Shown: positions 29,903 to 32,864 of the stretch, piece after piece | Position numbering within the stretch: position 1 is the stretch's first letter | Layout of the letters: each line of letters opens with the position of its first letter | Source of the DNA: Glutamicibacter uratoxydans | Lineage (GTDB): Bacteria > Actinomycetota > Actinomycetes > Actinomycetales > Micrococcaceae | Reading direction: 5' to 3' | NCBI RefSeq assembly: GCF_006539925.1 | Contig: NZ_BJNY01000014.1 | Span: 1 to 64,000 of the forward strand | Length of the DNA: 64,000 bases | Translations under genes and position numbers: made by a program | Notes under the pieces: model-generated | What the model was told of the DNA's origin: nothing | Databases searched by the model: none | What the model saw: only the letters and a program-made list of their open reading frames with translations

Positions 29903-29979
29903 CGGGCTATGGCGCAGCTTGGTAGCGCGCCTGACTGGGGGTCAGGAGGTCGCAAGTTCAAATCTTGTTAGCCCGACCA
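29903..29979 (+). tRNA. tRNA-Pro (anticodon GGG)
   Basis: A 77-base cloverleaf including an encoded CCA end. The acceptor arm CGGGCTA pairs perfectly with TAGCCCG. The anticodon arm CCTGA-CTGGGGG-TCAGG gives anticodon GGG, reading CCC/CCU proline codons. The T-arm has GTTCAAATC. A strong terminator follows. Confidence 0.97.
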
Positions 29980-30061: not shown

Positions 30062-30901
30062 GTGAAGCGCCGTTTTATGCAGGTCGATGTCTTCAGCGGC
30101 CACCCGTTCAAGGGCAATCCGCTGGGCGTGGTGCTGGACGGGAGCGGACTGAGCGATGAGCAGATGCGCGACTACTCCCGCTGGTCGAACCTCTCCGAGG
30201 TCACCTTCATCCTCCCCACTCAGGAGCGCGCAGCCGACTACCGGTTCAGGATCTTCTCCGGAGACACGGAGTTCCCCTTTGCCGGCCACCCCACCCTGGG
30301 TACCGCCCATGCCTGGCTGGCCGCCGGCGGCGCCCCGCGGGTGCCGGGGAAGATCCACGCCCAGTGCGCCGCAGGAATCGTCCCGGTGAAATTCGGGGCC
30401 GCTGGATACGCCTTTGTGTCCCCGCCGCTGCAGCGGACCGGTGAATTCGACGCCCAGCGCCGCGAGGCCGTGCGCGCCATCCTGGGCGTTGATGACTCCC
30501 AGATCCTTGCCACCCAGTGGGTGGACAACGGGCCGGGCTGGAGCGCGGTACTGCTCGACAGCGCGCAAACGGTGCTGGACTTGAAACCAGATGCCTCGGC
30601 GCACCGCCAAAAATGGAAGATCGGCGTCGTCGGCGCCCTGCCCGGGGGATCGGATGCGGCATTCGAGGTCCGGGCCTTCAACTTCAACCACGGCGCGCTG
30701 CGCGAGGATCCGGTCACCGGAAGCCTGAACGCGGGCATTGCCCAATGGCTCGTGGACAGCGGCCGGGCGGCGCTGCCCTTTTCAAATCGACAGGGCACGG
30801 CGATGGGGCATCTTGGACGCGTCGACTTCACGCTGGATGAGGGCCTGCTATGGACCGGAGGCGCGGCGGCAACCCTGATCGACGGGCACATCGACATCTA
30901 G
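30062..30901 (+). CDS. PhzF-family epimerase/isomerase-like protein
   Basis: A 279-residue member of the diaminopimelate-epimerase-like PhzF superfamily. It shows QVDVFSGHPFKGNPLGVV at the start, the catalytic glutamate region NLSEVTFIL near residue 45, the FPFAGHPTLG motif, and EDPVTGSLNAGIAQWL near the C-terminus, all diagnostic. PhzF proper isomerises a phenazine precursor, but most homologues have unknown substrates and no phenazine genes are present. The GTG start is chosen because AGGAG lies ~9 bases upstream and earlier in-frame codons run into the tRNA terminator. Confidence 0.85.
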   Translation: MKRRFMQVDVFSGHPFKGNPLGVVLDGSGLSDEQMRDYSRWSNLSEVTFILPTQERAADYRFRIFSGDTEFPFAGHPTLGTAHAWLAAGGAPRVPGKIHAQCAAGIVPVKFGAAGYAFVSPPLQRTGEFDAQRREAVRAILGVDDSQILATQWVDNGPGWSAVLLDSAQTVLDLKPDASAHRQKWKIGVVGALPGGSDAAFEVRAFNFNHGALREDPVTGSLNAGIAQWLVDSGRAALPFSNRQGTAMGHLGRVDFTLDEGLLWTGGAAATLIDGHIDI

Positions 30902-30926
30902 GGCCGCGCCAATGTGATCGAGGCGA

Positions 30927-30955
30927 TTGCCAGAACCCGGCGCCGCGCCTAGGCT
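30927..30955 (+). promoter_or_regulatory. promoter of the ABC-F leader
   Basis: TTGCCA (30927-30932), exactly 17 bases, TAGGCT (30950-30955). The first upstream reading frame starts 7 bases after the -10, at the expected transcription start. Confidence 0.65.
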
Positions 30956-30962
30956 TGTACCC

Positions 30963-30983
30963 ATGGGTACGCTGTTCAACTAA
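30963..30983 (+). CDS. leaderless 6-codon upstream ORF (MGTLFN)
   Basis: ATG-GGT-ACG-CTG-TTC-AAC-TAA, whose ATG coincides with the predicted 5' end of the transcript. Its TAA overlaps the ATG of the next upstream frame (TAATG). The peptide is probably regulatory rather than functional as a product. Existence is predicted only from position. Confidence 0.5.
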   Translation: MGTLFN

Positions 30984-31099
30984 TGACCGTCTTGCGTCCA
31001 GCACCGCTGCGCACCACGGTCCGCCGCCAGCTGCATCGCAGCTCGCGGCATCCCTCGCCCGTCCAGCGGCGGTTGTCATGCCGTCGACGTGAGGATTGA
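30983..31099 (+). CDS. 38-codon Arg-rich leader peptide before ABC-F gene
   Basis: Starts on the TAATG overlap and ends with TGA 9 bases before the ABC-F ATG. It encodes 38 residues with 11 arginines, clustered as RR, RR and RRR. Leader peptides whose translation by drug-stalled ribosomes controls a downstream gene are known for antibiotic-resistance ABC-F genes. The length, position, arginine clusters and the internal hairpin fit that model. No direct evidence of translation is available. Confidence 0.5.
   Translation: MTVLRPAPLRTTVRRQLHRSSRHPSPVQRRLSCRRRED
31021..31072 (+). promoter_or_regulatory. hairpin within the ABC-F leader
   Basis: CCGCCGC (31021-31027) pairs with GCGGCGG (31066-31072). 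An alternative inner hairpin, AGCTGC-ATC-GCAGCT, lies at 31029-31043. The structure sits within the 38-codon leader frame, so a translating or stalled ribosome would change its folding. No T tract follows, so any control may be at translation. Confidence 0.45.
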
Positions 31100-31108
31100 G
31101 AACACACC

Positions 31109-32800
31109 ATGACTTCCCCCTTGCCTGCAGAAACACTCCACACTCCCGAGGCCTTCTGCCTTGAACTGCGCGGCGTCAGCATGAGCTTCGGCGACCGTGA
31201 CGTCCTTGACGGCGTCGACCTCAGCCTTGGACCCGTTGACCGCGTGGCGGTCCTGGGCGAGAACGGCTCCGGAAAATCCACGCTGCTCCGCCTGGCCGCC
31301 GGATCGCTGGCCCCCGTCCATGGTGTACGGCGCGCCAATGTTCCCGGCCATATCGCCTACGCCGCCCAAGCTCCCCGGTTCGGGCCGGAACTGAGCATCG
31401 GCCAGGTCATCGACTCCTACCACCACCGCTTCCGCGAGCTGGAGCGGCTGATGGATGCCGTCAGCAGGCGGCTTGGCGCAGCTTCGGGCAGCCGGCAGGA
31501 GCAGCTGCTGGGCCAGCTGCAGCAGCTGACCGACATCTACGAAGCGGCCCAGGGGTATTCGCTGGAGCAGCGGATGGACCGCGCCCTGCAGCAGTTGGGG
31601 CTGGCGCACCTGGACCGGCGGATGCCGGCGGCAAGGCTGTCAGGAGGGCAGCGCTCCCGGCTGGCCCTGGCTTGCGTGCTGTGCTCCGGGGCCCAGCTGC
31701 TGCTGCTTGACGAACCGACCAACGACCTCGACGAGACGGCGATGGCTTGGCTGGAACGCAGCCTCGACGCGCATCGCGGAGCCTTGCTGGTGGTCAGCCA
31801 CGACCGCATGTTCCTCAAGCGCTTCGCCCGCAGCATCGTGGAAGTCGCCGACGGGGCGCTGCGCCACTATGGGGGCGGCTATGACGGCTACCTGAAGGCC
31901 AAGGAGCAGGAACGCCAGGCGGCGCTGGCGGCCTATGAGAGCTGGAAAGACGAGCTTGAATGCTCCCAAAGCCTGGTGCGGAAGAACACGTCGAGGGTTG
32001 CCGCGATTCCGCGAAAGCAGGAAAAGGCCGCGTTCGGCCATGGAAACTTCCGCCCGCGCAGCCGTAACCACGGCTCCACCTCTAAAGTCAGGCAGGCCAA
32101 GTCGCGCATCGAGGAGCTCGAATCCCATCCTGCTCCGCGCCCTGCGGAAGAACTTGAATTCACGCTGCCTACAGCGGGGGAGCAGGGCAATGAATCCGGG
32201 CTGCTGCTCAGCCTGCATGAACCGGTGCGTGCCACCGAGCCCCGGCTGGCGTGCCCCAATCTGGACATCAGCCTGGGGCAGCGCTGGCTGGTGACAGGCC
32301 CCAACGGCGCAGGCAAGACCACCCTGCTCAGGCTGCTGGCAGGGGAGCTGGAGTACAGCAGCGGCGGCATCCACCGCGCCGAGGACCTGCGCTGCGCCTG
32401 GCTTCGGCAGGAAGCGGCTCCGTTGCGCGGACAGAGCCTGCTGCAGTCGTTTGCCCTGGCCACCGGCCAATACCTCGACGATGCAGCCGAGACGCTGGCC
32501 GCCCTGGGGCTTTTCGACCCCCGTGATTTCCTGCGCCATCCGCAGGCCCTGTCAACGGGCCAGCAGCGGCGCCTTGAGCTGGCGGTTGCCGTCAGCTCGC
32601 AAGCCCAGCTGCTGCTGCTCGACGAACCGACCAACCATCTGTCCCCGGCCTTGGTTGAACAGCTTGAAGATGCGTTGGCGGAGTACCCGGGCACCGTGAT
32701 CAGTGTCAGCCATGACCGCAGGTGGCAGCAGAAGCTCGGGCAGAACGGAGCATTGCACCGGCTGGAGGTCCGGACGGGCACCGTGCGGCAGCTGGGCTAG
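31109..32800 (+). CDS. ABC-F subfamily ATPase (ribosome protection type)
   Basis: A 563-residue protein with two ABC domains and no membrane segments. Domain 1 has Walker A GENGSGKST (~50-58), signature LSGGQRSR and Walker B LLLLDEPTNDLDE. An interdomain linker of ~90 charged residues follows. Domain 2 has GPNGAGKTT, LSTGQQRR and LLLLDEPTNHLSP. ABC-F proteins bind the ribosomal E site; many protect from macrolides, lincosamides, streptogramins or pleuromutilins, others are translation factors. The upstream leader peptides argue for the drug-responsive kind, but the drug cannot be named. Confidence 0.88.
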   Translation: MTSPLPAETLHTPEAFCLELRGVSMSFGDRDVLDGVDLSLGPVDRVAVLGENGSGKSTLLRLAAGSLAPVHGVRRANVPGHIAYAAQAPRFGPELSIGQVIDSYHHRFRELERLMDAVSRRLGAASGSRQEQLLGQLQQLTDIYEAAQGYSLEQRMDRALQQLGLAHLDRRMPAARLSGGQRSRLALACVLCSGAQLLLLDEPTNDLDETAMAWLERSLDAHRGALLVVSHDRMFLKRFARSIVEVADGALRHYGGGYDGYLKAKEQERQAALAAYESWKDELECSQSLVRKNTSRVAAIPRKQEKAAFGHGNFRPRSRNHGSTSKVRQAKSRIEELESHPAPRPAEELEFTLPTAGEQGNESGLLLSLHEPVRATEPRLACPNLDISLGQRWLVTGPNGAGKTTLLRLLAGELEYSSGGIHRAEDLRCAWLRQEAAPLRGQSLLQSFALATGQYLDDAAETLAALGLFDPRDFLRHPQALSTGQQRRLELAVAVSSQAQLLLLDEPTNHLSPALVEQLEDALAEYPGTVISVSHDRRWQQKLGQNGALHRLEVRTGTVRQLG

Positions 32801-32834: not shown

Positions 32835-32864
32835 TTGGATCACATATCGTATATGATCTATCTG
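32835..32864 (+). promoter_or_regulatory. promoter and embedded palindromic operator of the monooxygenase gene
   Basis: TTGGAT (32835-32840), an 18-base spacer and TATCTG (32859-32864). The spacer contains the palindrome CATAT-CGT-ATATG (32843-32855). A protein bound there would block RNA polymerase directly, suggesting repression relieved by an aromatic inducer. No regulator gene lies alongside. Confidence 0.5.

Follow-up and report, generated by a model that had tools for sequence, protein, structure and literature searches.

How is an ABC-F gene controlled when the first codon of its transcript may be the start of a reading frame only six codons long? The question is raised by a 64,000-nucleotide stretch of the Glutamicibacter uratoxydans genome (contig NZ_BJNY01000014.1, hereafter the window), in which the leader of an ABC-F gene carries a promoter-like pair of hexamers followed closely by a short upstream open reading frame (uORF) encoding MGTLFN. 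With a probability of roughly 0.7, this leader would regulate an ARE-type ABC-F gene by ribosome-stalling attenuation, with the uORF translated as a leaderless frame. The reading draws on the position and geometry of the uORF, the conservation of both the frame and residues 1-4 of its peptide, covariation in a hairpin just downstream (HP1), and strong matches of a covariance model combining the uORF with that hairpin (R1), which were found only at this gene family.

The arrangement was scored with a scan for a promoter-like pair of hexamers together with an ATG or GTG that lies 6-7 nt beyond the -10 element and opens a frame of 2-16 codons. At a threshold score of at least 17, matches were present in 84 of 126 upstream regions of homologues (L028, L056, L061, L096 and L112, which lie at contig ends or are duplicates, were left out), and none occurred within genes in 96.8 kb taken from 88 of the homologue loci. 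On both strands of the window (128 kb), the MGTLFN frame, which scores 19, was the single match. The arrangement of promoter and MGTLFN frame exceeds chance. The homologue loci are related by descent, so their counts are not independent.

A scan that did not select on the peptide, at a score of at least 16 and with L041 also left out because it has no separate leader, gave a promoter-anchored frame in 42 of 64 loci of the near clade. The second residue was Gly in 33 of these frames, and the third residue of those 33 was Thr in 27, Ser in five and Tyr in one; the -10 element ended 6-7 nt before the ATG in 34 of the 42. In other clades 56 of 61 loci had a match, two of which look spurious (VRGRN at L033 and VRPRKFPPR at L038). 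A separate list of MG-type frames holds 48 loci, 47 of them distinct, and was drawn up by a pattern and filter requiring Gly at residue 2, Thr, Ser or Ala at residue 3 and L, I, V, M or H at residue 4. Its uniformity at these residues is therefore built in, and the count free of such preselection is that of the peptide-unselected scan.

Within the genus, the ABC-F gene was found in 16 of 18 genomes including the window's own (E <= 1e-90), the other 15 proteins being 49-65% identical to that of the window. A frame starting MGT(L/I) lies 6-7 nt past a TA---T hexamer at all 16 of these loci (L010-L025), in two of them with a GTG start. Beyond residue 4 the peptides diverge (MGTLFN, MGTLHH, MGTLHL, MGTLFL, MGTLYYS, MGTIISGIYFL and others). 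Similar uORFs occur in other genera of the same family (MGTLFL, MGTLFS, MGSLFL, MGALIR) and in other families (MGTLIYS, MGTLIRH, MGTLIFQ, MGTLV, MGTL* and, in Mobilicoccus caccae, L003, MGSLFL); MGSL* and MGSLFL were also found in large genomes of 7.1-9.7 Mb. The leaderless-looking micro-ORF that the initial annotation had placed before an ARE-like ABC-F gene is thus borne out, in both its position and its first residues, across the genus and beyond the family. Like uORF-controlled ARE-ABCF leaders, these leaders have a short conserved frame between promoter and ABC-F gene.

More distant homologues carry other peptides. In five loci of one family (f35; L124, L126, L129, L130 and L137) the leaderless-looking uORFs encode MRLTFL, MRLYFFL (twice), MRLQIFL and MRLI behind near-consensus promoters (TTGACA, TTGACG or TTGCCG, 17 nt, TATCGT, 7-8 nt); MRL is a known macrolide arrest start. 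Relatives of lower identity have mainly tripeptide uORFs, MKS in 29 loci as well as MKL, MKK, MKN, MWN, MNN, MDN, MRS and others. One uORF set was compiled without L001, L002, L004-L009, L028, L038, L041, L056, L061 and L096, and L073, L078, L082 and L089 yielded no uORF. A same-genus genome lacking an intact gene contains a decayed copy (G009:C8:148455-149015), an ABC-F fragment with 56% identity over residues 373-559 and three internal stops.

In most MG-type leaders a hairpin follows the uORF stop by a few bases, and a two-base bulge on its 5' side (UU, UC or UA) separates the outer stem from an inner one, GAGC/GCUC; the inner CAGC/GCUG of the window is a compensated form of the latter. In the window the hairpin can be extended outwards by pairing GACCGU (30985-30990) with ACGGUC (31016-31021). 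A blind search for hairpins with a UU or UC bulge, from which two leaders under 40 nt were left out, reached a score of at least 10 in 47 of 101 leaders, compared with 4.9% of shuffled leaders, and the inner arm began with GAG, which was not scored, in 45 of those 47. An alignment of 26 sequences (A1) was taken from 29 candidates picked for a clear hairpin among 47 MG-type leaders, three with long frames being excluded. In A1 93.3% of cells pair, and both partners have changed in eight of the 11 pairs. Covariation scores 0.337, compared with 0.030-0.119 when the partners are slid; the selection favours the percentage paired more than the covariation. Leaders with MKS and MW- peptides share the same hairpin, closer to the ABC-F start and in many cases with longer loops. 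Mutually exclusive hairpins, as described in the initial annotation, did not emerge: the leader folds somewhat better than shuffled sequence (minimum energy -64.2 kcal/mol, z -1.87, with 5 of 200 shuffles as good) and one hairpin is conserved, but no conserved alternative fold was found for the window leader.

R1 was run with stricter filters on 246 class-level and 98 related genomes, two overlapping sets. The window leader matches it at 58 bits (E 2e-14) and is itself among the 26 sequences from which the model was built. Matches below 1e-9 were found in 10 genomes, each directly before this ABC-F gene, and several of these sequences are within the model; all other listed matches were at 8e-5 or weaker. 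No leader before any other gene was among the matches below 1e-9 in the 246 and 98 genomes. When 58 match loci were examined by tblastn, ABC-F was detected at the 10 strong ones and at two weak ones (L188 and L193), and the other 46 weak loci had none. At the Rfam gathering score the window gives only a tRNA at 29903 and nothing in the leader, and among the matches of six related loci at E <= 5 none reached a gathering score.

Three further observations concern the hairpin. Its bulged form (G-UY-GAGC...GCUC-C) is common to leaders with quite different uORF peptides. At L039, in another genome of the genus (G008), the ABC-F gene shares only 35% identity, yet upstream of it lies a leaderless-looking frame, MQYLLFL, with the same bulged hairpin after the frame. 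The CUCC of the HP1 3' arm was noticed by eye in several loci as a possible anti-Shine-Dalgarno sequence, and CUCC fits any Shine-Dalgarno sequence.

From these features we infer the following course of events. RNA polymerase would start at or beside A30963, placing the 5' end of the mRNA at or within about 2 nt of 30963; the distance of 7 nt from the -10 element to the uORF ATG is compatible with a start codon at the transcript end, and promoters of like geometry also lie upstream of homologues. Because the mRNA would begin with the uORF AUG, there would be no room for a Shine-Dalgarno sequence, and 70S ribosomes would translate the uORF as a leaderless frame. A ribosome-bound drug would stall the ribosome within the first four codons, the stall would alter folding of the RNA 3' of the uORF from HP1 onwards, and ABC-F would be expressed; without the drug the ribosome would depart and the ABC-F start region would be shut. 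In the tripeptide classes, the ABC-F start would become accessible while a ribosome is held on the uORF. Four-codon versions (MGTL* and MGSL*) suggest that residues past codon 4 may be dispensable. The site of transcription start, translation of the uORF without a leader, the stall, the drug behind it and the level at which control acts are all predicted; with related mini-frames before the same gene in many actinobacteria, the six-codon frame is probably a drug-sensing switch. Chloramphenicol and linezolid stall ribosomes where Ala, Ser or Thr occupies the penultimate place (PMC8987054; this and the papers below are cited from excerpts of their text). With codon 4 in the P site, the Thr or Ser before it would fit this rule, which we offer as a candidate clue to the drug, a lead and not a result.

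Several findings weigh against this reading. The -10 hexamer TAGGCT agrees with TATAAT at only three of six positions and is weak, which is why a strict consensus promoter scan of 30700-31300 returned no sites; the promoter that had been called good holds up in its -35 element, its spacing and its TA---T core, but not in its -10 hexamer. No promoter-anchored match at a score of at least 16 was obtained in 22 of the 64 near-clade loci, 14 of which have an MG frame by pattern and eight of which do not. The blind hairpin search at a score of at least 10 misses HP1 in seven of the 16 same-genus leaders (L013-L017, L019 and L025, the last of which has a shorter form), and R1 gives a match below 1e-9 in only six of the 16 genomes of the genus that carry the gene, a low sensitivity explained by its construction from short-frame leaders. 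The uORF-start duplex of the window was not better than chance in two tests (z +1.0 and +0.5), and masking the window uORF cuts the cost of opening the ABC-F start by 1.7 kcal/mol, compared with a mean of 2.4 for masks elsewhere; a fold switch at the window is thus not indicated. The protein, too, falls short of both curated cut-offs. Its best NCBIfam model, that of the TlrC/CarA/OleB/SrmB proteins (NF000171), aligns residues 18-558 at 521.2 bits of the 800 demanded, and that of ribosomal protection-like ABC-F proteins (NF000355) gives 379.4 bits against 380, short by 0.6 bit. For this reason a resistance role of the gene is put no higher than likely. The nearest named proteins, of the TlrC/CarA/OleB/SrmB type, protect from macrolides.

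Table 1 Features of the ABC-F leader and its surroundings, in window coordinates
Feature	Position	Strand	Description
PhzF-like gene	ends 30901		upstream neighbour of the ABC-F gene
ABC-F regulatory leader (intergenic region), putative	30902-31108	+	207 bases between the PhzF-like gene and the ABC-F gene
Promoter, predicted	30927..30955	+	-35 TTGCCA 30927-30932, 17-nt spacer, -10 TAGGCT 30950-30955
uORF MGTLFN*	30963..30983	+	ATG GGT ACG CTG TTC AAC TAA; ATG 7 nt after -10
Second frame, 38 codons	30983..31099	+	own ATG overlaps the uORF stop (TAATG); stop 9 nt before the ABC-F ATG at 31109
Hairpin HP1	30993..31013	+	UGCG-[UC bulge]-CAGC-ACC-GCUG-CGCA; in the minimum-energy fold
ABC-F translation initiation region	31085..31111	+	in the minimum-energy fold GAACA...CCAU pairs with uORF UGUUC...AUGG
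ABC-F protein, 563 aa	31109..32800	+	nearest NCBIfam model TlrC/CarA/OleB/SrmB-type ribosomal protection
Phenol 2-monooxygenase gene	starts 32926		downstream of the ABC-F gene; NF006144, 1003.5 bits

An AT-rich, palindrome-like stretch, GATCACATATCGTATATGATC, lies at 32838-32858 between the ABC-F and phenol 2-monooxygenase genes and is possibly an operator.

Other accounts of the leader differ in what they make of its reading frames. The initial annotation described a chain in which the six-codon frame passes ribosomes to a coupled, arginine-rich frame of 38 codons and from there to the ABC-F gene. Every element of that layout is present in the sequence (TTGCCA-N17-TAGGCT, the six-codon frame, the TAATG overlap, the 38-codon frame and the 9 bases to the ABC-F ATG), and the ABC-F start has only a weak and distant Shine-Dalgarno match (GAGG, by eye), so coupling could help it. 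However, of 25 MG-type leaders checked, that of the window alone has an AUG that overlaps the uORF stop, the other 24 lacking it; the second frame scores -0.38 per codon compared with +0.33 for the ABC-F gene, on a codon score trained on seven window genes of which the ABC-F gene is one; 72.5% of 5000 dinucleotide shuffles remain open for at least 37 codons; and the region holds the conserved HP1 instead. A conserved coupled leader was rejected on these grounds, the 38-codon frame is judged a chance frame with no conserved part in the system, and the chain must be regarded as highly improbable. Relatives that keep the gene have kept the first of the two frames and lost the second: a striking nested frame can be due to chance even though the six codons adjoining it are widely conserved. 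It is also very unlikely that the conservation reflects nothing more than a promoter and an RNA signal, the six-codon frame itself being untranslated. Leaderless geometry would conserve promoter and ATG together, but MG(T/S)L is kept despite variation at third codon positions (the third base of codon 2 is T in 27, A in 14 and C in six of 47 MG-type frames), these frames range from 4 to 14 codons, and other clades retain a tiny frame with different peptides.

Two further alternatives accept a stalled ribosome on the uORF and differ in what the stall would do. In one, a direct translation attenuation, the uORF bases are themselves antisense to the ABC-F start, pairing with its Shine-Dalgarno sequence or start region until a stalled ribosome frees them. 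The minimum-energy fold of the window contains such pairs (AUGG/CCAU and UGUUC/GAACA), and among tripeptide uORFs 29 of 50 loci showed uninterrupted Watson-Crick runs of at least 7 with the ABC-F start region, a length reached in about 3-4% of shuffles (21 of 29 for MKS, which pairs UGAAGUCCU with AGGACUUC, and eight of 21 for other tripeptides). In 27 hand-picked non-MG representatives (23 tripeptides and four longer), cognate pairing beat permuted pairing with z -6.0. The MG class gives no such uniform result. Runs of at least 7 occur in three of 47 loci, the same as in shuffles, and a Glutamicibacter-rich set of 21 gave z +0.69 (p 0.75), whereas another hand-picked set of 21 gave z -2.85 (p 0.004) and the mean duplex z was -0.91 over 46 loci (L107 and L112 left out); the best uORF complement anywhere in the leader gave no signal (mean z -0.26, n=46). 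The pairing tests for the MG class disagree, and the evidence is mixed: pairing is supported in the tripeptide classes and not in the window itself, where the duplex and mask results given above apply. As a general switch, uORF-to-start pairing was not retained, and as the explanation of this leader it is possible but the less probable course. The other alternative is transcription attenuation, in which stalling on the uORF averts intrinsic termination, as with lmrC (PMC8546547). It is a usual published mode of ARE-ABCF leaders (PMC10201436, PMC12421871, PMC8546547), but is unlikely here: no terminator-like site was found at 30700-31300, and a scan detected one in only eight of 103 leaders. 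Because of this scarcity, control at the level of translation or Rho-type termination is favoured over an intrinsic terminator in the leaderless stalling attenuator that we prefer.

In predicted folds of two same-genus leaders (L021 and L022), GGUACGUU(G) of the uORF finds its perfect complement, (C)AACGUACC, about 90 nt downstream, a wiring unlike that of the window.

Should the preferred reading be true, many actinobacteria would run ABC-F protection genes from mini-frames that can do without a Shine-Dalgarno sequence and without a 5' leader, and such a frame would be about the smallest possible drug sensor, located at the very end of an mRNA. The clade-specific peptides (MGTL, MGSL, MRL, MKS, MKL) would be a set of natural sensors that can be compared drug by drug, and the system could serve to examine whether ribosome drugs affect leaderless initiation differently. 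A wider reading is tentative and, in our estimate, doubtful: a class-wide family of attenuators, all of them leaderless and controlling TlrC-like ABC-F genes, each with a 3-14-codon frame at the mRNA AUG and sensing tied to 70S leaderless initiation, in which MG(T/S)L would be an undescribed arrest peptide fitting the phenicol/oxazolidinone Ala/Ser/Thr rule and the bulged hairpin would be part of the switch.

Control of ARE-ABCF genes by stalling on tiny uORFs is established (PMC10201436, PMC12421871, PMC8546547). In Firmicutes the frames encode MR(I/M) for cplR, MIN for vmlR, MK(L/Q) for vmlR2 and MAGN for lsaA (PMC10201436), and in Streptomyces MLV and MRS for are5sc and MVGDDDISG for tiaA (PMC12421871). 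As in the leaders described here, a very short frame conserved per clade lies between promoter and gene, and the peptides MKL and MRS coincide with those of homologue leaders. In contrast, ribosome binding sites are described for the are5sc and tiaA frames, whose 5' regions measure 232 and 194 bases, that of cplR being 212, and the word "leaderless" is absent from the main texts of the same three papers (PMC10201436, PMC12421871, PMC8546547). Neither MG(T/S)L nor the bulged hairpin was found in the excerpts of these accounts, and no leaderless uORF of an ABC-F gene was among the matches listed in a literature search of titles and the starts of abstracts, which covered few subscription journals. 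The leader would therefore be of a known kind, a uORF attenuator of an ARE-like ABC-F gene, and its leaderless uORF and MG(T/S)L leader peptide would be new, no earlier description having been found in the literature searched. For leaderless frames the nearest comparison is with mycobacteria, in which leaderless short ORFs were first noted by Shell 2015 (PMC4633059) and function in cysteine attenuation (Canestrari 2020, as cited in PMC9031893 and PMC13236596). In those polycysteine attenuators, runs of Cys codons serve to sense an amino acid, whereas MGTLFN has no such run and the gene here is an ABC-F gene; in both, a leaderless short frame would head the transcript and control the gene behind it.

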